In this document: positions 308-40,065 of the stretch, in pieces
Layout: each line of letters opens with the position of its first letter
Numbering within the stretch: the first letter of the stretch is position 1
Source of the DNA: Bacteroidaceae bacterium
Lineage (GTDB): Bacteria > Bacteroidota > Bacteroidia > Bacteroidales > Bacteroidaceae
DNA length: 40,065 bases
Assembly: GCA_017940185.1 (NCBI GenBank)
Contig: JAGAZE010000047.1
Coordinates: 1-40,065 of the forward strand
Direction: 5' to 3'
The notes under the pieces: generated by a model
What the model was told of the DNA's origin: nothing
Database searches by the model: none
The model's input: only the letters and a program-made list of their open reading frames with translations
Program-made: the position numbers and the translations under genes

Positions 308-1060
308 TCAGCTGTCAATTGTGAGCATTACCGGGCAATGGTCGGAGCCGAGTATGTCGGTATAGATTTCCGCCGCCTTCACCTGTGGCAGCAGCCGTTG
401 CGACACGAGGAAGTAGTCGATGCGCCAGCCGATGTTTTTGCTTCTTGCCTGAAAGCGGTACGACCACCACGAGAACACCTGCTCGTCGGGGTGCAACTGT
501 CGGAAGGTGTCGGCAAATCCGCTGTCGAGCAGTTGCTGAAACTGACCGCGCTCTTCGTCGGTGAAGCCAGGGTTGTTGTGGTTGGTCTTCGGGTTGCGCA
601 GGTCTATCTCCTGATGTGCCACGTTCATATCGCCGCACACGATGACAGGTTTCTGCCTGTCGAGGTTGAGGAGGTAGTTGCGGAAGTCGCGTTCCCACTT
701 CATGCGGTAGTCGAGTCGCTTCAGTCCGTCCTGCGCATTGGGCGTATAGACATTCACCAGGAAGCAGTCGCCCATGTCGAGCGTCACGATGCGTCCCTCG
801 TGGTCGTGCTCATCAATACCCATGCCGTAGCTGACGCTCAGCGGCTCACGGCGTGTGAAAACGACGGTGCCCGAGTAGCCCTTCTTGTCGGCATAGTTCC
901 AGTACGACCGGTAGCCATCGAATTGCATACTGATTTGTCCTTCCTGCAGTTTTGTCTCCTGCAGGCACACGCAGTCGGCGTCGAGTTGAGCGAAGATATC
1001 GGCAAAACCTTTGCCTGCCACAGCACGCAGACCGTTGACATTCCAGGATACGAGTTTCAT
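308..1060 (-). CDS. xth: Exodeoxyribonuclease III / AP endonuclease
   Basis: 250 residues, the usual length for the Xth/ExoA family. These enzymes cut the backbone 5' of abasic sites and remove 3' blocking groups in base excision repair. Visible family motifs in order are MKLVSWNVNGLRA at the N-terminus (metal-binding Asn), CLQETKLQ (metal-binding Glu), VNVYTPNAQ, CGDMNVAH (catalytic Asp-Asn), GWRIDYFLVS and GSDHCPVML near the C-terminus (catalytic Asp-His). The ATG at 1060 gives the canonical N-terminus. It is the last gene of a minus-strand run, 36 bases behind a lipoprotein gene. The function is secure; co-transcription with the upstream genes is inferred from spacing. Confidence 0.95.
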   Translation of the reverse strand: MKLVSWNVNGLRAVAGKGFADIFAQLDADCVCLQETKLQEGQISMQFDGYRSYWNYADKKGYSGTVVFTRREPLSVSYGMGIDEHDHEGRIVTLDMGDCFLVNVYTPNAQDGLKRLDYRMKWERDFRNYLLNLDRQKPVIVCGDMNVAHQEIDLRNPKTNHNNPGFTDEERGQFQQLLDSGFADTFRQLHPDEQVFSWWSYRFQARSKNIGWRIDYFLVSQRLLPQVKAAEIYTDILGSDHCPVMLTIDS

Positions 1061-1096
1061 AAGACGAACGCAGATTATGAGCTAGGAATCAGGGCA

Positions 1097-1765
1097 TCAA
1101 TACTTTGTTCCCACCAGTCGAGCATAGTCGTTGATGGGGTAGGTCTGGTCGTTGACTGTCATCTTGTCGAGCAGCAGGAAAGCTGACATGCGCTGGAGGC
1201 GTCCGACATTCGTGTTGTATTCCACATGCTCGGAGATAGCAGCGTAATTGGCACTGCCGCTTGTCTCTTGGCGTGAGAGGCTGCTCAGCAGATTGAGGCT
1301 GACGTTGTACTGCACGTCCTCATACTCTGTGGTGAACGACAGCGTGTAGCTCTGCGGCAGGAACGTGCACATGAGCATCGACACCCCTTCTCCCGACTGC
1401 TTCTGCTGTGGCGACAATGTGGCAAGGAAGGGACGGGCTGCAGCCTTGTCGAGGGCCTCCTGCACCTTAGAGCCTTCCACCACATAGTTGGCCAGAAAAG
1501 CCACGGGCAGGTTGTTGGTGCTGAATTCTCCGTAGGTAGAGAGATTCCAGTCGCACGTCAGCGAATCTCTCTTGTCGAGGTGTCGTGGATTGTAGAAGTG
1601 GAGCTTACCCTTGTAGTTGCCGGCTATGTTACCCAGCGCTAGGCGCTTCTCGTGGTCAGACATGTTTTTTGTCTTGTTTTCGTCGTCATCGCCCAGACAG
1701 GCGGTAAAGGCGAACACTACGGCGAAGGCAGCCGCCAACATGCCGAAGAATACTGTCTTTTTCAT
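1097..1765 (-). CDS. Putative lipoprotein, function unknown
   Basis: 222 residues from the ATG at 1765; a TTG three codons upstream is less likely. The start MKKTVFFGMLAAAF gives a hydrophobic signal segment, then FAFTAC with an acidic LGDDDEN after the cysteine. This is a typical Bacteroidetes lipobox and surface-export-like signal. The mature part is predicted rich in beta strands, with no catalytic motif I recognise. It resembles small Bacteroidales lipoproteins such as those grouped as DUF4840, but that assignment is a guess. It sits 45 bases after folE and 36 before xth on the same strand, so it is probably the sixth gene of the tpiA-folE operon. Confidence 0.75.
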   Translation of the reverse strand: MKKTVFFGMLAAAFAVVFAFTACLGDDDENKTKNMSDHEKRLALGNIAGNYKGKLHFYNPRHLDKRDSLTCDWNLSTYGEFSTNNLPVAFLANYVVEGSKVQEALDKAAARPFLATLSPQQKQSGEGVSMLMCTFLPQSYTLSFTTEYEDVQYNVSLNLLSSLSRQETSGSANYAAISEHVEYNTNVGRLQRMSAFLLLDKMTVNDQTYPINDYARLVGTKY

Positions 1766-1810
1766 ATCATTCAATATTAGTGTGATGAAATGTTGAGTGT
1801 GGCCATGTGG

Positions 1811-2392
1811 TTATCCCCCTTGTATGAGGTTCATAAACTCTTGGCGTGTCTTGGCCTGATTGAATGCTCCGCTGAAGTCGCTCGTTGTGGTGATGGCGTT
1901 TTGCTTTTCCACACCTCGCATCTGCATGCACATGTGCTGCGCTTCTATCACCACCATCACGCCTAGCGGATGCAGGGTGTCTTGTATGCAGTCTTTTATC
2001 TGCTGTGTCATGCGCTCCTGCACTTGCAGACGATGGGAGAAGATGTCGACCACACGTGCTATCTTGCTCAGTCCGGTGATGTAGCCGTTGGGGATATACG
2101 CCACGTGAGCCTTGCCGTAGAAGGGTATGAGGTGGTGCTCGCACATGGAGAAGAAGTCGATGTCTTTCACTATCACCATCTGACTGTATTTCTCCTCGAA
2201 GAGTGCATCGGTGAGCACCTTGTGTGGGTCTTGCGTATAGCCTCGGGTGAGTATCTGCATGGCCTTTGCCACGCGCATAGGTGTCTTCAGCAGTCCTTCG
2301 CGCTCAGCATCCTCGCCAAGCAACTTGAGTATCTCTTTATAGTGTACGGCCAACTGGTCGAGGCCGTCGCGGAATTCTGTCTCTGGATTCAT
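1811..2392 (-). CDS. folE: GTP cyclohydrolase I
   Basis: 193 residues from the ATG at 2392 (MNPETEF), the normal FolE length. The frame is open 14 codons further upstream, but that extension has no family similarity. The enzyme converts GTP to 7,8-dihydroneopterin triphosphate, the first step to folate and related pterins. Zinc ligands are visible in [10 protein letters not shown] (Cys and His) and in HMCMQMRGV (second Cys). The segment [13 protein letters not shown] and the C-terminal F.GAF.....REFMNLI are also typical. It follows the SPOR-domain gene by 59 bases; the order tpiA-SPOR-folE is commonly conserved in Bacteroidales. Confidence 0.95.
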
Positions 2393-2451
2393 TATGTGAG
2401 TAATGGGTATGGTGTTGTGTCGGCTATGCTCCATCGCGTCGCTGGGGGCGA

Positions 2452-3249
2452 TTACTGCACGCTGATTTTTCCTTTCACTATCACGGCCTGCTTAAATCCC
2501 AGTGAGCGGATGCGTCGCAGGGCTTGCTCAGCCTCTTTGTATTCTACAAAGTTGCCCACTCGGCACTTCCAGCTGGGCGAGTAGAAGTGCACGTAGATGG
2601 GATAGCTGGGGAAGTGCGACTTTATTCTGTTGCCTGCCTGCTGTGCTTTCTCCCTGTCGGCACGTGTGTTGCCGCCGGCATACACCTGTATACGGTAGCC
2701 CACCACCTTGCGCGAGCCTTTCATCACCTTCTTGCGCGAGTCTGTGGTGCGCGAGGTGGTCTCCGAGTTCGACTTCTCTGTGGTGCGTTCGCGGCGAACA
2801 ATGTTTTTGTTTTCGCTTTCGCTGTTGGTGCGAGGCCGACTGCTGCTCGTCGTGGCGCGGCGCTCTTCGCGGTTGCTTTCCGATGTGGAAGCGTGGTGGT
2901 CGGAGCTGGCCGACGACGATTTGCTGGCTGATGAAGACGACGAAGATGTGGAAGGCTTGCTTGCCGACGTCGACGTGGAAGGTTTGTTTGTCGACGTGGA
3001 AGGTTTGCTTGTCGACGTGGAAGGTTTGCTTGTCGACGTGGAAGGTTTGCTTGTCGATGGTTTGTTGGTCGACGGTTTTCCTGTCGATGCCGAACCGTTG
3101 ATGAGTGCTTCCAGCTCTTTGCTCTGGTTGACGGTGACCTTTCCGGTGCCGTTCTGCTGATTTTGCAGATGCTCGGTGTAGGTCTGTGCCTTTGTAGTGC
3201 CCACTGCCAGGGTGAGGGTGCAGCAGGCGAGGATGGTGCGTAGGGTCAT
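2452..3249 (-). CDS. Secreted SPOR-domain protein with KPSTS repeat linker
   Basis: 265 residues from the ATG at 3249 ([10 protein letters not shown]); the 15 codons upstream do not look like signal peptide. A signal peptide (about 1-21, ending near TKAQ) is followed by a low-complexity Ser/Thr/Lys linker, about residues 55-165. The linker contains heptads of the type KPSTSTS, and then charged RRE/RTTE-rich sequence. The C-terminal 75 residues ([13 protein letters not shown]...VIVKGKI) form a SPOR domain, a fold that binds denuded peptidoglycan glycan at division sites. The protein is thus probably periplasmic and septum-associated (inference). It starts 25 bases after tpiA. The linker DNA has exact 21-bp tandem units, so its length may vary between strains. 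Confidence 0.88.
2969..3052 (-). repeat. Four 21-bp tandem units inside the SPOR gene
   Basis: Units begin at 2969, 2990, 3011 and 3032 on the plus strand with consensus GTCGACGTGGAAGGTTTGYT plus T. They are identical except for one base in the first. Degenerate and partial copies flank them. Each unit encodes seven residues (KPSTSTS type), so copy-number change keeps the frame. Confidence 0.9.
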
Positions 3250-3274
3250 GATGGTGTTGATTTGGGGGTGTCGG

Positions 3275-4045
3275 TTATTGCTTGGCCTTGTCAAGGGCAG
3301 CCACTATCTGCATGAAGTCGTCGGCCTTGAGCGATGCTCCGCCGATGAGACCTCCGTCGATATCAGGCTGCTGGAACAACTGCTCTGCATTCGAGGGTTT
3401 GCAGCTGCCACCATAGAGGATGGTGGTGTCGTCGGCCAGCGGTGCTCCGTAGTGCTGTGCTATGAGCTGGCGTATGTGGGCGTGCATCTCTTGTGCCTGC
3501 TGTGTAGTGGCGGTCTTACCCGTGCCGATAGCCCAGATGGGCTCGTAGGCGATGGTGATGTGTCGCATCTCGTCTTCGCTGAAGTCGAAGAGCGATGCCT
3601 GCAGCTGCTCGGCCACATAGGCGTTTTGCTTTCCTGCCTCGCGCACCTCCAACGGCTCGCCCACGCAGAATATCACTTCCAGCTGCTGTTGCAACGCTTG
3701 TTGCACTTTTTCTTTCAGCTGTTGGTGAGTTTCGCCAAAGTACTGCCGGCGTTCGGAGTGTCCGAGTATCACATATTGTGCTCCCGTGCTCTTCACCATA
3801 TCGGCAGCCACCTCACCTGTGTAGGCACCTGCCGTATGCTCGGAGCAGTTTTGCGCTCCTATGGCCATGTGCTTGGGGGCGGCCACGGCATGCAGGGCTA
3901 CCAGATGGATGAACGGTGCACACACAACGACGGTGTGCGGTGTGGGTTGTTGTTCGAGGGCGTCGTTGATTTCGCTGGCCAGATCAATACCTTCTTGCAG
4001 TGTGAGGTTCATCTTCCAGTTGCCGGCTACAATGTTTTTTCTCAT
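3275..4045 (-). CDS. tpiA: Triosephosphate isomerase
   Basis: 256 residues from the ATG at 4045, the family length. It interconverts dihydroxyacetone phosphate and glyceraldehyde 3-phosphate in glycolysis. Key residues are visible: Asn and Lys in VAGNWKMN at the N-terminus, the catalytic His in ILGHSERR, the catalytic Glu in AYEPIWAIGTGK (start of the flexible loop), and the phosphate-binding YGGS and GGLIGGASL near the end. The open frame extends well upstream, but that part belongs to the overlapping DoxX gene in another frame. Its start codon overlaps the DoxX stop as ATGA (4042-4045), which suggests translational coupling. Confidence 0.97.
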   Translation of the reverse strand: MRKNIVAGNWKMNLTLQEGIDLASEINDALEQQPTPHTVVVCAPFIHLVALHAVAAPKHMAIGAQNCSEHTAGAYTGEVAADMVKSTGAQYVILGHSERRQYFGETHQQLKEKVQQALQQQLEVIFCVGEPLEVREAGKQNAYVAEQLQASLFDFSEDEMRHITIAYEPIWAIGTGKTATTQQAQEMHAHIRQLIAQHYGAPLADDTTILYGGSCKPSNAEQLFQQPDIDGGLIGGASLKADDFMQIVAALDKAKQ

Positions 4046-31600: not shown

Positions 31601-31828
31601 TTATTCCCACAAATTACGTAGCTTGATGTAGTCGCGGATATCGAATGGCGGTTGTGTCTCTTCTTCAAAGTGCTCGTCGATGAGTTCGTCTTCATCTGTT
31701 TCATCGAAGTCCCCGTATTTTCCTCCCACATCGCCAGGTCCGGAGGTGAAATTGATGGGAATGCCGTCGCAGAGGTGGTTACCGGCTACGTGGCATACGC
31801 GGGGCGAGAGGTAGGGTTTGCGGTTCAT
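31601..31828 (-). CDS. 75-residue acidic protein, coupled to GH5 gene
   Basis: The ATG at 31828 overlaps the GH5 stop as ATGA (31825-31828), so it is probably made by translational coupling. The frame upstream belongs to a shadow. Sequence features are a basic start MNRKPYLSPRV, then CHVAGNHLCDGIPIN with two cysteines, a Gly/Asp segment SGPGDVGGKYGDFD, a run of acids (DETDEDELIDEHFEEE) and an aromatic end. The pattern (basic K-x-Y-x-x-P start, Cys/Gly middle, acidic tail) recalls many short unannotated Prevotella/Bacteroides proteins. There is no signal peptide or known domain. A terminator follows. The function is unknown. Confidence 0.7.
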   Translation of the reverse strand: MNRKPYLSPRVCHVAGNHLCDGIPINFTSGPGDVGGKYGDFDETDEDELIDEHFEEETQPPFDIRDYIKLRNLWE

Positions 31829-34800
31829 CTCACCACCTCCTTTCTTCCGTTGTGCAGATAGACACCACGCTGCGTAGGACGGCTGTTGAGCCTTCGGCCG
31901 TCGAGGGTAAACCATCCCGTATCGGTGTCTACCGGTTTCTGCAGCCAGGTGTCGTTGATGCCGGTGGCAACGTCGTCGCCGTCGTCGACAACGTACTTTA
32001 TCTGCTTGGCATCGGCCACAAGTGATTTGGGCAGCGACAGATAGGCACGGCCCACGGGTATCACCGTGTTGTTGCACGGATAGAACTGCTGCATGCTGGC
32101 AGAGAAGTAGAAATTGTAGCAGTCGTTGCTCTCCTTCGGTATGGCAGTGCCTGTGCCGACTTTGAAGTAGTTGGTACCCTCATACTTAGCCCTACTGGTG
32201 TGTACGGGCAGGTAGATGATGTCGTCGCCCGTGCCGGTGAAGGCAGGTCCTTTGAGCAGGAATCCCTCGTCGGGAGCTATTCCCATGCGCTTGCCCGACG
32301 TGCTCGGGGCACTGATGGTCACCGTGCCGTCGTTCACCTCTGTGGCAGCATACCACGTGTAGGGGTAGTTGGAGGCATTATATATAGAACTATAGGTGGG
32401 ATTGGTGTAGCACACTTCCTTGCTGAGTGCGTGGTTGAAGTTGTAGTGGTTGGGATAGGTTGTACCCTCGTAGGTGCACGACGCTGCTTCTGAAGTGCTG
32501 GGGATAGTCATGGTAGCGTAGCCGCTGCCTGTCTTGCTGAGCGTGACGGGCGTATAGATTTCATGGTTTATACTTTTGTTGCTCAGCCACTTCGCGATGA
32601 TGAGCGATGCCTTGCCCGGCGGCACTATGAAGCGGTCGAAACGGTTTTGGAAGGAGTAGTCGCCTGCGGGATAGATGACGTGGGCATCGGCAATGTGGTA
32701 GATGGGTTTTCCTCCGCCGCCGAAGCATCGTGTGCCGCTCACGTTGCATGCCATGGAGAGGTAGATGTTTTTCAGCCCCATGAAGGCATTGCGTGCTCCG
32801 CCGTCGCTGAACACATTGTTGCCGCTCACCGCTTCCAGACCATTGAGGTTAAGTGTGGTGAGGGCCGGGAAGCTCTGTGTGCCGTAGAAGTTGTTCGAGC
32901 CCGTGATGGTCTTCAGTGCAGGCAGGTTGAGTGTGGTGAGCGCATTGAAGCTACTATTGGCGCTCAGTACATTGCTGCCCGTGAGTGTGGTAAGGGCGGG
33001 CAGGCTCACGGTGGTGAGTTTGCTGCCAAAGTCGGTCAATGTGGAAAGCAGCACATTGTCGCCGATGGCGGTCACCTTCGGCATATTGATGGTGGTGAGC
33101 TCGCTCAGGTCGACTCCGTCGCCACCCGTGCGCGACAACACGTAGTTGCCTATCGTCGTGGCTTCGGGCAGGTTGATGGTGGTAAGCTTGTCGAAGCGTG
33201 CCGCGCCGGTGCCTCCGGCCACGAACACATGGTTGCCCACGGTCTTCACGTTGGGCAGACTGACGGCGGTGAGGTTGTTGAACTTGTCGCCGGCACTGCC
33301 TTCCACGGCGAAGACATTGTCGCCCACTTCTGTTACGGTGTAGGTTCGGCCGTCCCAGCTAATGGTGTTCAGCGTTATCGTGCCCGAAATATTGGGATTA
33401 TTGCACTTCACCACCTTGGCTGTCAGACTGGTGTTGTCTACGAGGTAGGTGAAGTCGCCTACCGTTGCGTAGTTGTCCTTGCTGCCATCCTTGGGCATAT
33501 ACCGGGTGGTGATGGTCACTTTGTTTTTAACCTTCGGGGTGAGTGTTGCCGTTGCACCCGTGCTGCCATTGACCAGCTGTGCCTTCCGCAGTCGCAGCCG
33601 GCACGATCCGGGACTGCGCCACACAAGCGTGATGCGCCGTATCGGCTTATAGTTGGCCGACACATTGTTGAAGTAGAGCGTCTGGTTGAGGGAAGTGATG
33701 TTGTTAAGATTTGAATATTCGGAGTCGCTCTTGTATACCCTGAACGACAGGTTGCCGCCGTTGGTATTGGGCTGTTGGGCAAGTGTCAGCTCTATGCGGG
33801 TGTATTTGTTGTTGAGTCCACTGGCATCGTAGGCGAGTTCCACCTCACTGTATTGCTGGCTGAATTCTATCTGCTGCTCGCTGTTGTAGTCGGCAGCTAC
33901 GGGCAATGGGGCGGTATGGCTGCTTCCGTGCCATGCCTTCAGCATCCTGTCGGCCAGGTCGGCTTGGTTGAAGGCTGGTATGCCGCGCACGCTGCCGTTG
34001 GTCACGCCCATCCAGAACATGGCTGCCATGTTGTTGGCCTTCACTCGGGAGAGAAACAGGTCGACGAAGTTGAACATGTGGGTTCTGTTGGCGGCATAGT
34101 CGGTGGGATTGGCATCAACATTCGACGTGCCCCACTCGCCGATAATCACCGGTCCGCCCTTACTGACAAGGTTGTTGTTCAGGTTGTTCATGATGACGTC
34201 CATCAGGTCTTCCACCTCGCTCATGGGTCGTTCGGTGCGGTTGCCTTGCTCGTCCACATTTACAATGCGCGGGTAGGCGTGCACGCCGAAGATGATGTGC
34301 CGCTTGTTAGGTTCAGGGTTCTGCAGCTTGCTGGTAGCCTCGCTACTGTAGGCACTGGCATAGGTGTTGAGTATGAGATTGCGTTGTGCGTTTCTTCCAC
34401 CTGTGCTTCGCACTGTTGTGACAAAGTCGCTTGCGTAGTTGTTGATGGCATTGTAGGCAGAGGTGGCTATCGTCTCATCATACCCTTCTGGAGCTTTCGA
34501 CGAAGCATAGTCCCAAGAGTCAATGGGGTCGAGCATCTCGTTGAAACCCTCGAAGAGAAGGCGCTCGCCGTAGTTGATGAAGGTCTCTGCTATCTGTTGC
34601 CATATTTTCTTGAACACCGCTTTGTTGTTCTCATAGTTGGTCATGTCGGCGCGCAACCAGGCTTTGCCTGAGTTGGGGTCGGTCTTGCCTGTGTCGTGGT
34701 GCACATTGATGATGCAGTACATATCTTGTGCCAGCACATAGTCGACCACTTGCTTTACCCTTGCCATCCAGGCGGGGTCGATGTTGCCATTGGCATCAAG

Positions 34801-35073
34801 GTGGGGATACCATGTCACGGGCACGCGCACAGTGCCGAAGCCTGCCTGCTTCAGCATCTCCATGAGTTCGGGTGTGGTCACGGCCTGCCCGCGCATTGTC
34901 TCGGTCTGCGTCACATCGGTCACGCCGAGGGCATGGCTGTCGAGCGTGTTGCCCAAGTTCCAGCCCACGCCCATGTTTCTCACAGCCTGAAACGAGGTCT
35001 CAAAAGTGGGAATCTGCGCACGTAGCGAGAGAGCGATAAGCAACAAAAAGAGAAGTACGGTGTATTTCTTCAT
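31825..35073 (-). CDS. Secreted GH5 endoglucanase with beta-sandwich and LRR-like repeat modules
   Basis: 1082 residues. The signal peptide ends near LRAQ. The GH5 barrel spans about 25-390: MGVGWNLGNTLDSHA, VRVPVTWYPH, the acid/base Glu179 in FEGFNEML and the nucleophile Glu313 in IIGEWGTS. Residues about 394-497 look like a carbohydrate-binding beta-sandwich (QQIEFSQQYSEVEL...RITLVWRSPG). Residues about 598-780 carry BspA-like leucine-rich repeats (LTTINLPEATTIG, LTTVSLPALTTLTGSN, LTTLNLPALKTITGSN). A 300-residue region follows, ending in WFTLDGRRLNSRPTQRGVYL, a tail common in secreted Prevotella proteins. The likely substrate is a beta-1,4-glucan or mixed-linkage/xyloglucan backbone; this is inferred. 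Confidence 0.92.
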   Translation of the reverse strand: MKKYTVLLFLLLIALSLRAQIPTFETSFQAVRNMGVGWNLGNTLDSHALGVTDVTQTETMRGQAVTTPELMEMLKQAGFGTVRVPVTWYPHLDANGNIDPAWMARVKQVVDYVLAQDMYCIINVHHDTGKTDPNSGKAWLRADMTNYENNKAVFKKIWQQIAETFINYGERLLFEGFNEMLDPIDSWDYASSKAPEGYDETIATSAYNAINNYASDFVTTVRSTGGRNAQRNLILNTYASAYSSEATSKLQNPEPNKRHIIFGVHAYPRIVNVDEQGNRTERPMSEVEDLMDVIMNNLNNNLVSKGGPVIIGEWGTSNVDANPTDYAANRTHMFNFVDLFLSRVKANNMAAMFWMGVTNGSVRGIPAFNQADLADRMLKAWHGSSHTAPLPVAADYNSEQQIEFSQQYSEVELAYDASGLNNKYTRIELTLAQQPNTNGGNLSFRVYKSDSEYSNLNNITSLNQTLYFNNVSANYKPIRRITLVWRSPGSCRLRLRKAQLVNGSTGATATLTPKVKNKVTITTRYMPKDGSKDNYATVGDFTYLVDNTSLTAKVVKCNNPNISGTITLNTISWDGRTYTVTEVGDNVFAVEGSAGDKFNNLTAVSLPNVKTVGNHVFVAGGTGAARFDKLTTINLPEATTIGNYVLSRTGGDGVDLSELTTINMPKVTAIGDNVLLSTLTDFGSKLTTVSLPALTTLTGSNVLSANSSFNALTTLNLPALKTITGSNNFYGTQSFPALTTLNLNGLEAVSGNNVFSDGGARNAFMGLKNIYLSMACNVSGTRCFGGGGKPIYHIADAHVIYPAGDYSFQNRFDRFIVPPGKASLIIAKWLSNKSINHEIYTPVTLSKTGSGYATMTIPSTSEAASCTYEGTTYPNHYNFNHALSKEVCYTNPTYSSIYNASNYPYTWYAATEVNDGTVTISAPSTSGKRMGIAPDEGFLLKGPAFTGTGDDIIYLPVHTSRAKYEGTNYFKVGTGTAIPKESNDCYNFYFSASMQQFYPCNNTVIPVGRAYLSLPKSLVADAKQIKYVVDDGDDVATGINDTWLQKPVDTDTGWFTLDGRRLNSRPTQRGVYLHNGRKEVVR

Positions 35074-36116: not shown

Positions 36117-37178
36117 TTATTCAAACACTTTGGCTTCGCGTTCGCCACGCAGCACGGCCAGGGCATTGTCGGCCAGGGCCTGCATCTCGTCTTCGCCGGG
36201 GAAGTTGTAGACAGGAGCCAGATACGACACGCGCTTGCGTATCTCGTCTACCACGTAGGTCCAGTGTGCTATGCCGCCGGTGAGCAGGATGGCGTCGGGC
36301 TGTCCGCAGAACACGGCACCCTTCGAGGCTATCTCCTTAGCGATGTGGTATATCATGGCGTCGACCATAAACTTGGCTTTCTCGTCGCCGTTGTTTACGC
36401 GGTCTTCTATGGCGCGCATGTCGTTGGTGCCGAGGTGCGCAGCCAATCCGGCGTTGCCAGCCACTTGCTTGAGCAGTTCTTCCTGCGTGTACTTGCCACT
36501 GAAGCACAGACGTATGAGTGCGCCTGCCGGCACAGAGCCGCAGCGTTCGGGTGCGAAGGGGCCTTCGCCGTCGAGAGCGTTGCTCACATCAACAGCCTTG
36601 CCGTGCATGTGGGCAGCCACGGAGATACCGCCGCCGAGATGGCAGACGATGAGGTTCAGGTCTTCATACTTCTTGCCTCTACCCTTAGCAAAGCGACGCG
36701 CGATGGCTTTCTGGTTGAGCGCATGCCAGATGCTGATGCGGGGCAGCAGCGGATTGCCGCTCACGCGGGCATAGTCGCACAACTCGTCGACGATGACAGG
36801 GTCGGCGATAAACTTCCGACAGCCCTCTATCTCGTCGGCGATGGCTGCTGCGATGATGCAGCCCAAGTCGCTGGCGTGGCTGTGCTCATTGCTCTTGATG
36901 TCGGCTATCATCGCCTCGTTCACCTCGTAGACACCGCCGTCGAGGGGCTTGGTAAGACCGCCGCGGCCTATCACAGCATCAAACTGCAGAGGTATCTCGG
37001 TGTGCTCCAACTCGGCCAGCACCATCTGCTTGCGGTAGTCGAACTGGTCAATGATGGTGGCAAACTGCTTCAGCTCGTCGGTGGAGTGGGAGATGTTGCG
37101 CTTGTGTATGAGTTCCTTGTCGTGGAAAATGGCTATCTTGGTAGAAGTGGAGCCGGGATTGATGACTAATATGTTCAT
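36117..37178 (-). CDS. buk: Butyrate kinase (acetokinase family)
   Basis: 353 residues. ILVINPGSTSTKIA at the N-terminus is the acetokinase phosphate-binding motif; HLGGGISVAAH and LTGGIAHW are the further ATPase-fold signatures. It converts butyryl phosphate and ADP to butyrate and ATP. Branched-chain acyl phosphates (isobutyrate, isovalerate) are also substrates of the family, so the true product is open. It sits 65 bases downstream of ptb, the usual pairing. Between the two genes is a GTCAACTTG-type repeat. Confidence 0.94.
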   Translation of the reverse strand: MNILVINPGSTSTKIAIFHDKELIHKRNISHSTDELKQFATIIDQFDYRKQMVLAELEHTEIPLQFDAVIGRGGLTKPLDGGVYEVNEAMIADIKSNEHSHASDLGCIIAAAIADEIEGCRKFIADPVIVDELCDYARVSGNPLLPRISIWHALNQKAIARRFAKGRGKKYEDLNLIVCHLGGGISVAAHMHGKAVDVSNALDGEGPFAPERCGSVPAGALIRLCFSGKYTQEELLKQVAGNAGLAAHLGTNDMRAIEDRVNNGDEKAKFMVDAMIYHIAKEIASKGAVFCGQPDAILLTGGIAHWTYVVDEIRKRVSYLAPVYNFPGEDEMQALADNALAVLRGEREAKVFE

Positions 37179-37213
37179 AATTTACGATGCTTCTATATGT
37201 TAAGTTTTCAAAA

Positions 37214-37239
37214 ACTCGTCAACTTGTCAACTCGTCAAC
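37214..37239. repeat. GTCAACTTG-type repeat between ptb and buk
   Basis: ACTCGTCAACTTGTCAACTC continues with GTCAAC. It begins 4 bases after the ptb stop and sits inside a likely operon. Confidence 0.8.
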
Positions 37240-37243
37240 AGTA

Positions 37244-38152
37244 TTAGCAGCTGATGATGGCCAGTGCGAGGCTGTAGAACTTCGACTTCACGCTGTCGCC
37301 TCTCGATGTGAGCACCACGGGTGCGAGGGGGCCCTTCAGCATGGCTGCCATCTCGCTCGGGCAGAAGGTGGTCACGGCCTTGTAGAACACGTTGCCGGCC
37401 TCGATGTCGGGGAAGATGATAGCATCGGCTTCTCCCTGCAGGGGCGAGTCGAGTCCTTTGGTCTGCAGTGCTTCGAGGTTGCACGAGGTCTTCAGGTCGA
37501 GCGGTCCGTCGACGATGCACTTGCCGAACTCGCCGGCAGCGGCTTTCTCCTTTATCTCGGCATAGCCCAGGGTGAAGGGGAAGAACTTCTCATTGGGTTT
37601 CTCCGTGCAGTGGTTGAGAGCGATGCGCGGTTCCTCGATGCCGAAGCTGTGGCACAGCTCGCTCACGTAGCGCACCTGCTCGATACGCTGCTCATGCGTG
37701 GGATAAGGTATCACGGCTGCATCGGTGAAGAAGAGCAGCTTGGGATAAGTCGGAATGTCGGCGGCGGCGATGTGTGTCAGCACGCGGCCCTTGGGCAGTA
37801 TGCCATGCTCCTTATTGAGCACGGCGTGGAGCAGGTTGTCGGTGTTGATGAGTCCTTTCATCAGCACGTCGGCATTGCCCTCGCGCACGATTTCCACTGC
37901 CTTGGCGGCAGCAGCATCCTTATCGGCGGCATCCACTATCTCGATGTGGTCCATGTAGGGGCGCAGATACTCGCTCTGTTCTATCTCCTGACGCGCACCC
38001 ACACAGATGGCGTGCATGAAACCACCCTTCAATGCCATGCTGATGGCTTCCTGGGTGTGGTCGTCACTGGCCCATACCACAGCCACGCGCTTGCGGTCGG
38101 AGCGTTCGGAAAGATGACGAATGAGATCGTCGAAACTCTTAATCTTTTCCAT
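37244..38152 (-). CDS. ptb: Phosphate butyryltransferase
   Basis: 302 residues of the phosphate acetyl/butaryl transferase family. It exchanges CoA for phosphate on butyryl-CoA (or a related short-chain acyl-CoA) to feed Buk. Visible segments are RVAVVWASDDHTQEAI at the N-terminus, LMKGLINTDNLLHAVL, FFTDAAVIPYPT and GPLDLKTSCN. DAIIFPDIEAGNVFYKAVT near the C-terminus is a strong family signature. A promoter element lies 72 bases upstream. Confidence 0.94.
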   Translation of the reverse strand: MEKIKSFDDLIRHLSERSDRKRVAVVWASDDHTQEAISMALKGGFMHAICVGARQEIEQSEYLRPYMDHIEIVDAADKDAAAAKAVEIVREGNADVLMKGLINTDNLLHAVLNKEHGILPKGRVLTHIAAADIPTYPKLLFFTDAAVIPYPTHEQRIEQVRYVSELCHSFGIEEPRIALNHCTEKPNEKFFPFTLGYAEIKEKAAAGEFGKCIVDGPLDLKTSCNLEALQTKGLDSPLQGEADAIIFPDIEAGNVFYKAVTTFCPSEMAAMLKGPLAPVVLTSRGDSVKSKFYSLALAIISC

Positions 38153-38223
38153 TACTTACTAGTTATGATTATTTTGGATGTTTGATTGTTTGCCTATAGG
38201 TTTCTCCCCCTCTACAAGCGCCG

Positions 38224-38231
38224 CAAAGGTA
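38224..38231 (-). promoter_or_regulatory. -7 element of ptb-buk
   Basis: TACCTTTG on the minus strand, 72 bases before the ptb ATG, matches TAnnTTTG. Confidence 0.6.
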
Positions 38232-38300
38232 GACAATAGTTTTTATCCATTGCACACTTTTGGCAAAAAAGTGCAATATTCATCAATCAACTCACATCAC

Positions 38301-38420
38301 CCGCCTACACAAGGCGCACAAAGAAGCACGAAAGTGGTGTAGGCGGTGTAAGCAGTGTAAGCGGCGAAAAATCGCTTACACCGCTACAACACACTGACTG
38401 ACAGAGAGTAATGGCCGTTT
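38301..38420. repeat. Cluster of GTGTAGGC/GTGTAAGC direct and inverted repeats
   Basis: CCGCCTACAC (38301-38310) is the exact reverse complement of 38337-38346. GTGTAAGCG (38355-38363) is the reverse complement of 38373-38381 with a 9-base loop. GGTGTAGGC, GGTGTAAGC and AGTGTAAGC follow one another in tandem at 38336-38362, and GGTGTAGGC recurs at about 38411. No gene is supported in 38153-38580; this cluster, the ptb promoter and the hairpin at 38497 are what the gap holds. Confidence 0.8.
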
Positions 38421-38496
38421 GGTGTAGGCAAATGCAAAAAACGAGAATCTTAGTATTGACGGAAACCACACAACTTTACATCCACTCCACAAATCA

Positions 38497-38528
38497 CATC
38501 GCCCCCCTTCTCACGAAGGAGGACGATG
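38497..38528 (-). other. GUGA-capped RNA hairpin downstream of the reverse transcriptase
   Basis: Fourteen pairs join 38497-38510 and 38515-38528 around a 4-base loop. In the minus-strand RNA the loop is GUGA (GNRA type) and two pairs are G.U. In the plus-strand RNA those two would be C/A mismatches, so the structure belongs to the reverse transcriptase transcript. It lies 53 bases after the stop codon. No T-run follows, so it may be more than a terminator. Confidence 0.65.
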
Positions 38529-38580
38529 CTTAGAAACTAATAAAAAAAACATAAATAGGTGTGTCTGCGCAATGACTGGT

Positions 38581-39828
38581 CTACGCAGCAGTCTGATCGG
38601 GCATAGGCTGCACGTGCAATATCCCTGAGCAAGGATTCCACACCACCTTGCAAGCATTGGCATCTGCCAGCAGGCAGGCGGGTTGTGAGGTATACAGCTG
38701 TTGCTGCACATTCGTTCGCAGCTGCTGTGAGGCACTATGCCGCAGCAGGCCCAGATAGGAGTTGAGCCGTGCCCTGTGTTTCCTCATCGTTTCGTATAGA
38801 GGATGCCTGCAAGCATCAAGCAGATAGGCATTCACTGCCAGGCGCATGTTGTGCGCTATGCGCTTGCCAGGGAGGATAATGCCATGGCGCAATCGCATGC
38901 CCAGCACGTGGATGCCGTAGGTCACTGGTTGCAGCACACGCTTGCGAGGATGCAGGCGCAGGCTGTACTCGCATCTCAGATAGTGCTCCGCGCATCGCAC
39001 CAGGTGCGCCAGTGTATGCCGGCTGCGCCCCACTATCATCATGTCGTCGACATAGCGGCCGTACCATCGCTGGCGGCAGCGTCGCTTCATCCAGTGGTCG
39101 AAGCGGGTGAGGTACACATTGCTGAACAGCTGCGAGGTGAGATTGCCGATAGGCAGGCCGCAACCCTCCTTCGTCCAGAAGAGGCTCTTGTCTTTGGGCA
39201 GGTCGTCCCACTCATGGCGGTTGCCTTTCATCAGGCAGCCGGCAGTGGGGTCGTTCATCACTATTTCTGCAAGCAGATGCTTCACCATGTCGTAGTCGAT
39301 GCACTCTCCCCAGCGGTGTCCTTCTGCATCGCAGGGACGATGTAGGTACCGGTCCATGGTGTCGTCGAGCGTGGCAAGCAGGCGTCGCCGGTCGATGGCC
39401 ATGAAGTAGCCGCTGATGTCAATCTTCAGTATATACGCCTTGCGTGTGAAGTTGCGTGAACAGCTGCGCATGTGGTGCAGTGTGCGGCGGATGCCGTAGA
39501 GCGTGCCTTTGCCCTTGCGGCACGAGTAGCAGTCGTCGATGAACGTGCGCTCCAGCATCGGAGAGAGGTAGTTGTACAGCAGGTGGTGCACCACGCGGTC
39601 GCGGAAGTCGGCAGCAAACACCTCGCGCTTCACGGGCCTGGTGACGATGAAGCACACCGAGCGGCCGGGCTTGTAGCGCCCGTGCTCTATCTCATCGGTC
39701 AGCGCCACAAGGTTGGCTTCAAGATTCATCTCGAAGCGCTGCTGGCTGGCGGTGTTGCGCTTGTGCCGACGGGCATCGTAGTAGGCCCGGAACACGTCGG
39801 AGAGCAGTTGTTCGTGTGTGATGTGCAT
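38581..39828 (-). CDS. Reverse transcriptase of a diversity-generating retroelement
   Basis: 415 residues from the ATG at 39828; a GTG at 39894 would add 22 codons. The RT domain has REVFAADFRDRVVHHLLYNY, the first catalytic Asp in LKIDISGYF (137), LPIGNLTSQLFSN (227-233) and the active centre YGRYVDDMMIVG (259-262). The (I/V/L)GxxxSQ form of motif 4, instead of QGxxxSP, is characteristic of DGR reverse transcriptases. No maturase or HNH domain follows, which argues against a group II intron. It would copy template-repeat RNA with errors at adenines and so diversify a target gene. An AAC-rich template-like segment lies directly upstream. No accessory Avd gene is visible. Confidence 0.88.
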   Translation of the reverse strand: MHITHEQLLSDVFRAYYDARRHKRNTASQQRFEMNLEANLVALTDEIEHGRYKPGRSVCFIVTRPVKREVFAADFRDRVVHHLLYNYLSPMLERTFIDDCYSCRKGKGTLYGIRRTLHHMRSCSRNFTRKAYILKIDISGYFMAIDRRRLLATLDDTMDRYLHRPCDAEGHRWGECIDYDMVKHLLAEIVMNDPTAGCLMKGNRHEWDDLPKDKSLFWTKEGCGLPIGNLTSQLFSNVYLTRFDHWMKRRCRQRWYGRYVDDMMIVGRSRHTLAHLVRCAEHYLRCEYSLRLHPRKRVLQPVTYGIHVLGMRLRHGIILPGKRIAHNMRLAVNAYLLDACRHPLYETMRKHRARLNSYLGLLRHSASQQLRTNVQQQLYTSQPACLLADANACKVVWNPCSGILHVQPMPDQTAA

Positions 39829-39854
39829 CGAGGTGTGTATTGCAGGTTGCGTAG

Positions 39855-40065
39855 TTATCTCTTCCCAATCAGTTTTCGGGGCTGCCTGAACCACTGAGCG
39901 CCACCGGGGCGGCTGCCGGCCACATAGCCGTTGTTGCGGTTGTTGTTGTTGTTGACGTTCACTTCGCCACTGCTGAAGTTCAGGTTGTAGGCGTTGTCGG
40001 TGTTGCCGGCGTTCGGCGACGACGACCAGTAGTAGCCGTTCGTACCTACGTTGTACAACGTACCA
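39855..40065 (-). other. Probable DGR template repeat (or variable 3' end of target), cut by window edge
   Basis: The minus-strand frame is open from the window edge to a stop at 39855-39857. It reads NGYYWSSSPNAGNTDNAYNL, then FSSGEVNVNNNNNRNNGYV. All 15 Asn codons are AAC and none AAT, with seven in the block 39931-39960. This is the hallmark of a DGR template, whose adenines become random bases in the variable copy. GYYWSSSP...NAYNLNF is the C-type-lectin/DUF1566-like fold end seen in Bacteroidetes DGR targets. The position, 30-240 bases upstream of the reverse transcriptase, fits a template repeat. The unmutated AACs favour template over variable region, but without the second copy this is not proved. 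Confidence 0.65.

Follow-up and report, generated by a model that had tools for sequence, protein, structure and literature searches.

In the diversity-generating retroelement (DGR) of phage BPP-1 (AY029185), a template repeat (TR) lies upstream of a reverse transcriptase (RT) that has SQ in motif 4, the target gene lies further upstream, and a stem-loop with a perfect 8-bp stem and a GAAA loop stands just after the one annotated variable region (VR). Passages cited here from two papers make BPP-1 homing dependent on this stem-loop behind the VR (PMC3240598; PMC12875486). Those from Guo et al. report that an IMH and a hairpin suffice to retarget the BPP-1 DGR, give a GRNA consensus for the hairpin loop, and, for phage DGRs, put 4–34 bp between the VR end and the hairpin (PMC3240598). 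DGRs with multiple VRs are known (271/948 in the cited part of PMC6642488), and excerpts on Treponema denticola and Thiohalocapsa describe targets far from the RT locus (PMC4891356; PMC10907252), with degraded loci in Thiohalocapsa as well (PMC10907252). In Bacteroides, DGRs diversify the tip pilins of type V pili (Macadangdang et al., as cited in the portion of PMC12632263 used here).

The DNA analyzed here, the window, is the whole of contig G000:C43 (40,065 bases) from a genome (G000) of 2.09 Mb in 52 contigs that is 89% complete and whose host we infer to be a Prevotella in the GTDB sense. Its right edge is very probably the 3′ half, TR plus RT, of a chromosomal DGR. The preliminary description had called it a partial DGR, and at the level of RT and template this is confirmed: the RT falls in the DGR clade (100/98), the template adenines are conserved, and a sister species (G005) supports the assignment. 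The locus shares with BPP-1 the RT class, the order of target, TR, and RT as completed by the sister, and, if the predicted fold holds, a stem-loop behind VRs, whereas BPP-1 is phage-borne, has one annotated VR, and carries its perfect stem immediately after it. It resembles the Treponema and Thiohalocapsa DGRs in having candidate target sites far from the RT and, like Thiohalocapsa in the cited excerpt (PMC10907252), sites that look degraded; by a comparison of descriptions only, it resembles the Bacteroides pilus-tip DGRs in its Bacteroidales host and its probable surface lipoprotein targets (PMC12632263, in part). It adds a chromosomal Prevotella DGR with several remote TR-like regions, for which the sister offers a complete cassette. 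Between the two genomes, VRs and the stem-loops downstream of them can be compared directly, which bears on how DGR targets are recognized and acquired.

The reverse transcriptase and its template

All features of the element lie on the minus strand. Read 5′ to 3′ from the right edge, they comprise the final 197 nt of the TR (39869..40065), a 40-nt spacer between the TR end and the RT start codon (39829..39868), and an intact RT frame of 415 aa (38581..39828), with its ATG at 39828 and its stop codon ending at 38581. We preferred this ATG because it aligns with the start of the sister protein and leaves the TR upstream. Because the window is an entire contig, the element is truncated by the contig end; by comparison with the sister TR, we estimate that ~30 nt of the TR 5′ end lie beyond it. 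Rfam gave no match at the gathering threshold in 38000–40065.

The two RT motifs reported earlier, IGNLTSQ and YVDD, were located at 39130..39159, where GLPIGNLTSQ represents motif 4 in its DGR version, SQ replacing SP, and at the active site, 39043..39054. The claim that the RT carries neither a maturase nor an endonuclease domain agrees with a Pfam search at E up to 0.01, which returned RVT_1 alone (4e-13). The nearest PDB chain was 8ub7_A (1.9e-30), listed only as Reverse transcriptase, which we take to be the BPP-1 enzyme; the next was the maturase RT 6me0_C (5.6e-6). In a tree of 38 rows (21 DGR-side, 11 retron, and 6 group II), the 21 DGR-side rows, which include the window RT and the BPP-1 brt protein from AY029185, split off at 100/98, so that placing the RT in a phylogeny, as had been suggested, put it with the DGR enzymes and not with group II introns or retrons. 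The window and sister RTs paired at 100/100, the 11 retron rows grouped at 100/100, and the six group II rows were weakly held as one group (48/93). BPP-1 was flagged as one of the long branches and the window RT as a row of unusual composition. Apart from BPP-1, the DGR-side rows had been chosen as relatives of the query, and the test is therefore the exclusion of group II and retron by these rows plus BPP-1. IGxLxSQ was present in 21/21 DGR-side rows of the tree and 0/17 group II and retron rows, and dN/dS between the window and sister RTs was 0.23 over 400 codons. These results place the enzyme in the DGR class and show purifying selection on it.

Relatives of the RT in phage and plasmid records (94 and 55 records, respectively) were all distant, at <60% identity. 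A PF00078 search of the own genome found two other matches, a partial group II-type RT on contig C6 and a fragment on C15, but no second DGR RT. The C6 frame (G000:C6:22415-23221) reached 282 of the 300 bits required by TIGR04416.

The repeat segment upstream of the RT had been described as template-like and restricted to AAC, and 15/15 Asn codons of its readable frame are indeed AAC. Between the window TR and the sister TR, aligned over the 197 nt present in the window, changes fell at 2/51 adenines and 16/143 other bases (Fisher p 0.97 for an adenine excess). These mismatches avoid adenine, where a variable region would show the opposite, and the window copy is therefore the template and not a VR. 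TR-like copies elsewhere in the own genome, the best at E 2e-45 on contig C13, place the segment beyond chance. As a possible sign of a C-type lectin fold at the target end, the TR translation matched Lcl_C at 1.1e-5, under the cut-off.

Remote TR-like regions and the sister cassette

Five remote TR-like regions of the own genome, named here by contig, were compared with the TR. Mismatches were significantly enriched at adenines in C13 (15/45 adenines vs 14/127 other bases; Fisher p 0.0011), C12 (23/45 vs 25/129; p 7.4e-5), and C44 (25/46 vs 24/131; p 6.3e-6), and were not in C33 (8/27 vs 15/72; p 0.25) or C23 (3/8 vs 6/44; p 0.13). The expectation of an adenine-biased near-copy in the genome was thus borne out by three regions, although the changes are not adenine-exclusive and two of the five lack a significant bias. 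Only 33–52% of the mismatches in these regions were at adenines, which makes the regions look old or decayed; the other 48–67% imply that they do not derive recently from the present TR, and non-adenine divergence reached 11–19% in C13, C12, and C44. In the cited part of Roux et al., at least 75% of mismatches at adenines is reported as overwhelming (PMC8144416). The VRs of Thiohalocapsa DGRs 4 and 5, as described in the excerpt of PMC10907252, match a TR at all non-adenine sites, a full match that is used there as an argument for activity in trans, whereas 0/5 of the regions compared here do so. At its 3′ end the TR reads PGGAQWF and the five remote regions PDG(S/T)PWF. At a sixth place, C21, only an IMH-like 24-mer is left. 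Three of the remote regions end open frames: C12 (291 aa), C44 (252 aa), and C23 (361 aa, truncated where its contig stops). The frames at C13 (150 aa) and C33 (60 aa, near a contig end) show no more than the VR end, with no target recognizable by eye in the former. Pfam found no Lcl_C in the C23 and C44 frames, returning only PqqA (1.6e-4) for C23 and nothing for C44.

The sister genome carries the whole cassette in one contig (C38): a target, a second accessory frame, avd, TR, and RT. Its RT is 78% identical to that of the window, the TR–RT order is the same, and it likewise has several remote TR-like regions. Unlike the window, it has an adenine-only VR in cis, in which 22/63 adenines and 0/157 other bases differ from the TR; that VR and TR also agree at the 3′ end, unlike the remote regions and TR of the window genome. 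The 555-aa target frame has a lipoprotein-type signal by eye and matches Lcl_C at 0.015, under the cut-off. Its avd matched NF033474 DivGenRetAVD (1.4e-10) and bAvd (1.3e-9) without reaching the curated cut-off of either model, and avd of another genome of the genus (G003) passed bAvd (43.3 bits vs 40). Four remote regions in the sister showed an adenine excess (p 6.5e-5 to 1.6e-9, with 52–77% of mismatches at adenines), and a fifth (G005:C12), aligned over 38 columns only, differed at 4/8 adenines and 2/30 other bases. The two elements differ in their neighbors, which are genes judged by eye to encode an epimerase and a sigma factor in the sister and butyrate kinase and phosphate butyryltransferase-like genes in the window, so the DGR is not at the same locus in the two species. 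The latter genes adjoin the DGR at 36117–38152; butyrate kinase scores 503 bits to TIGR02707, and the phosphate butyryltransferase-like gene, with 246.6 bits, stays under its cut-off.

In the window genome, a protein search run without a known positive, against an assembly that is 89% complete, gave no match to avd or the second accessory gene, and a cis target adjoining the TR was not found in this assembly, which breaks inside the TR. The earlier prediction of a target to the right on the same strand accordingly stands in part: the sister has its target on the same strand as TR and RT and upstream of both, but an adjoining target was not recovered from the window's own assembly. The most likely explanation is that assembly broke at the repeat and so dropped avd, the second accessory gene, and the cis target, whose place would be immediately past the contig end. 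From established DGR work, TR RNA would be copied by the window RT together with Avd, errors would enter opposite template adenines, and the cDNA would replace the VR in the 3′-terminal part of target genes, which here are probably surface lipoproteins with a lectin-like tip.

Among 83 related loci (80 plus three, with one locus counted twice), 67 had an adenine-biased direct repeat pair (p below 1e-4; best pair per locus), and in 60 of those 67 at least 75% of mismatches were at adenines. Avd is not universal among DGRs. Some loci are too short to hold every gene, and with that limit an Avd-like ORF occurred in 66/80, the second accessory in 32/80, and both in 27/80; a single open frame matched both models in five loci (L088, L111, L134, L135, and L142). 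The second accessory protein stands beside avd at, for example, L042:5345-5929 (-), L043:4934-5473 (-), and L044:4719-5351 (-). Its identity as MSL (MutS-like) was considered and is unsupported: Pfam gave nothing for two of the proteins at E up to 0.05, three had no PHROGs match at 0.1, and two PDB searches returned no MutS chain.

Two alternatives bear on this assignment. That the RT comes from a group II intron, a retron, or a defense RT, with the repeat unrelated, is exceedingly improbable, even though the enzyme matches group_II_RT_mat (79.4 bits vs a cut-off of 300, below the TIGR04416 criterion for a maturase RT), retron_St85 (55.7 bits vs 235), and 73 PADLOC models (best a general RT at 5.4e-34, then mostly DRT-type) from a library that gives no cut-offs. 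Barring an alignment error, the tree contradicts it at 100/98 and leaves the RT outside the 11-row retron clade, the motif 4 form and the PDB ranking disagree with it, and the adenine-biased repeat pairs beside 67 of the related loci speak against it; by tree, motif form, and model cut-offs, all three classes were rejected. A DGR that no longer works, in which RT and TR persist, neither avd nor a cis target exists, and the remote VRs are leftovers diversified by an older template, is a more serious but still unlikely reading. It would account for the accessory genes missing from the assembly, the non-adenine divergence of C13, C12, and C44, the bare 24-mer at C21, and the C13 frame that lacks a recognizable target, and DGRs with a full-length RT but non-adenine VR changes have been described (cited section of PMC3521204). 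Against it stand the intact RT with its dN/dS of 0.23, the conserved TR adenines, the adenine-only cis VR of the sister, and the position of the sister's corresponding genes directly upstream of the TR, which is beyond the contig end here.

Stem-loop elements behind the RT and variable regions

A dispersed stem-loop element lies 3′ of the RT stop codon (38491..38556, minus strand) and consists of a T-tract and, at 38496–38529, a 15-pair stem found by folding, with a GTGA loop and two T-G pairs (DNA fold z −4.55). Its 14-nt core has 10 copies in the own genome, each exact, in a search that allowed up to one mismatch and in which a reversed control pattern gave 4 hits. The left-hand 19-mer, again with up to one mismatch, occurred in 2/299 genomes of the genus, 10 times in G000, once in G005, and in 0/297 others (reversed control, 0), and viral contigs contained no exact copy of a 20-mer of the element. 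Six of the 10 own copies stand behind a VR or IMH remnant (C12, C13, C33, C44, C23, and C21), one stands behind the RT, and three are elsewhere: behind a gene that by eye resembles a cellulase (C27), behind one that resembles a leucine-rich-repeat surface protein (C31), and at a site with no clear gene (C49). At the VRs and the RT, the core lies 61–90 nt after the stop codon. The nominal chance of finding the stem-loops behind VRs, 1e-18, assumes independent placement and is not relied on here because the C12, C13, and C33 copies share a spacer.

The sister mostly uses a different hairpin behind its VRs. Its one copy of the window's element, with a GCGA loop, is behind the VR at C15, and a different element, GTCTCTTTGTTTTTTCTYCGCC, searched with up to two mismatches, was behind VRs in 3/3 sister copies (C15, C38, and C39), that is, at 3/6 sister VR sites, with none in G000 and a single copy, carrying two mismatches, among 118 other genomes. 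The C13 locus of the window genome and the C15 locus of the sister share several aligned blocks in conserved order. Identity is 69% in the VR and 75–77% in other blocks, which makes the VR the fast part. A 2.4-kb block starting from the stem-loop is 94–100% identical in 150-nt steps, with steps of 54–87% beyond; it corresponds to L198 (G005:C15) 1051-3450 against G000:C13, with one edge at the stem-loop, C15:1046. Such near-identity suggests either a recent exchange or cross-contamination of the two draft assemblies, and we therefore draw no rate from this locus.

The stem-loop pattern is the part of this locus worth a second look, one odd extra on an element of a known kind. On the reading that we favor, with some reserve, as the probable one, the stem-loop is a lineage-specific intergenic repeat or an RNA 3′-end structure that rides with duplicated VR-bearing 3′ ends and has no homing role. 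Consistent with it, three of the 10 copies are near neither a VR nor the RT, and a perfect Watson-Crick 8-bp stem was absent at 13/13 tested VR and RT 3′ ends of the own genome and the sister, in a test in which BPP-1 showed its 8-bp GAAA stem-loop. A DNA cruciform is less likely on this result. The window stem is interrupted at its two T-G positions, its GTGA loop falls outside the GRNA consensus, and the spacing of 61–90 nt between stop codon and core at VRs and RT compares with 4–34 bp from the VR end in the phage DGRs of the cited passages (PMC3240598). The seven copies behind VRs, IMH remnants, or the RT, and the separate sister element found only behind VRs in that genome, argue the other way. 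A bolder reading makes a short stem-loop cassette behind the VR, rather than the gene, the mark of a DGR target in this Prevotella lineage: cassette and IMH would be copied together to new 3′ ends, each species would have its own cassette, and the RT copy would be a donor or regulator of the same recognition. We hold this to be a long shot. In the parts of the open-access literature covered, we found no report of a stem-loop common to dispersed targets and an RT.

Two further genes were noted by eye. At G000:C27:107002-107802, a gene with an end like that of the DGR target family lies upstream of the cellulase-like gene and then the stem-loop. A large protein at 31825–35073 of the window appears to be a secreted cellulase, and its C terminus resembles that of the cellulase-like protein on C27.
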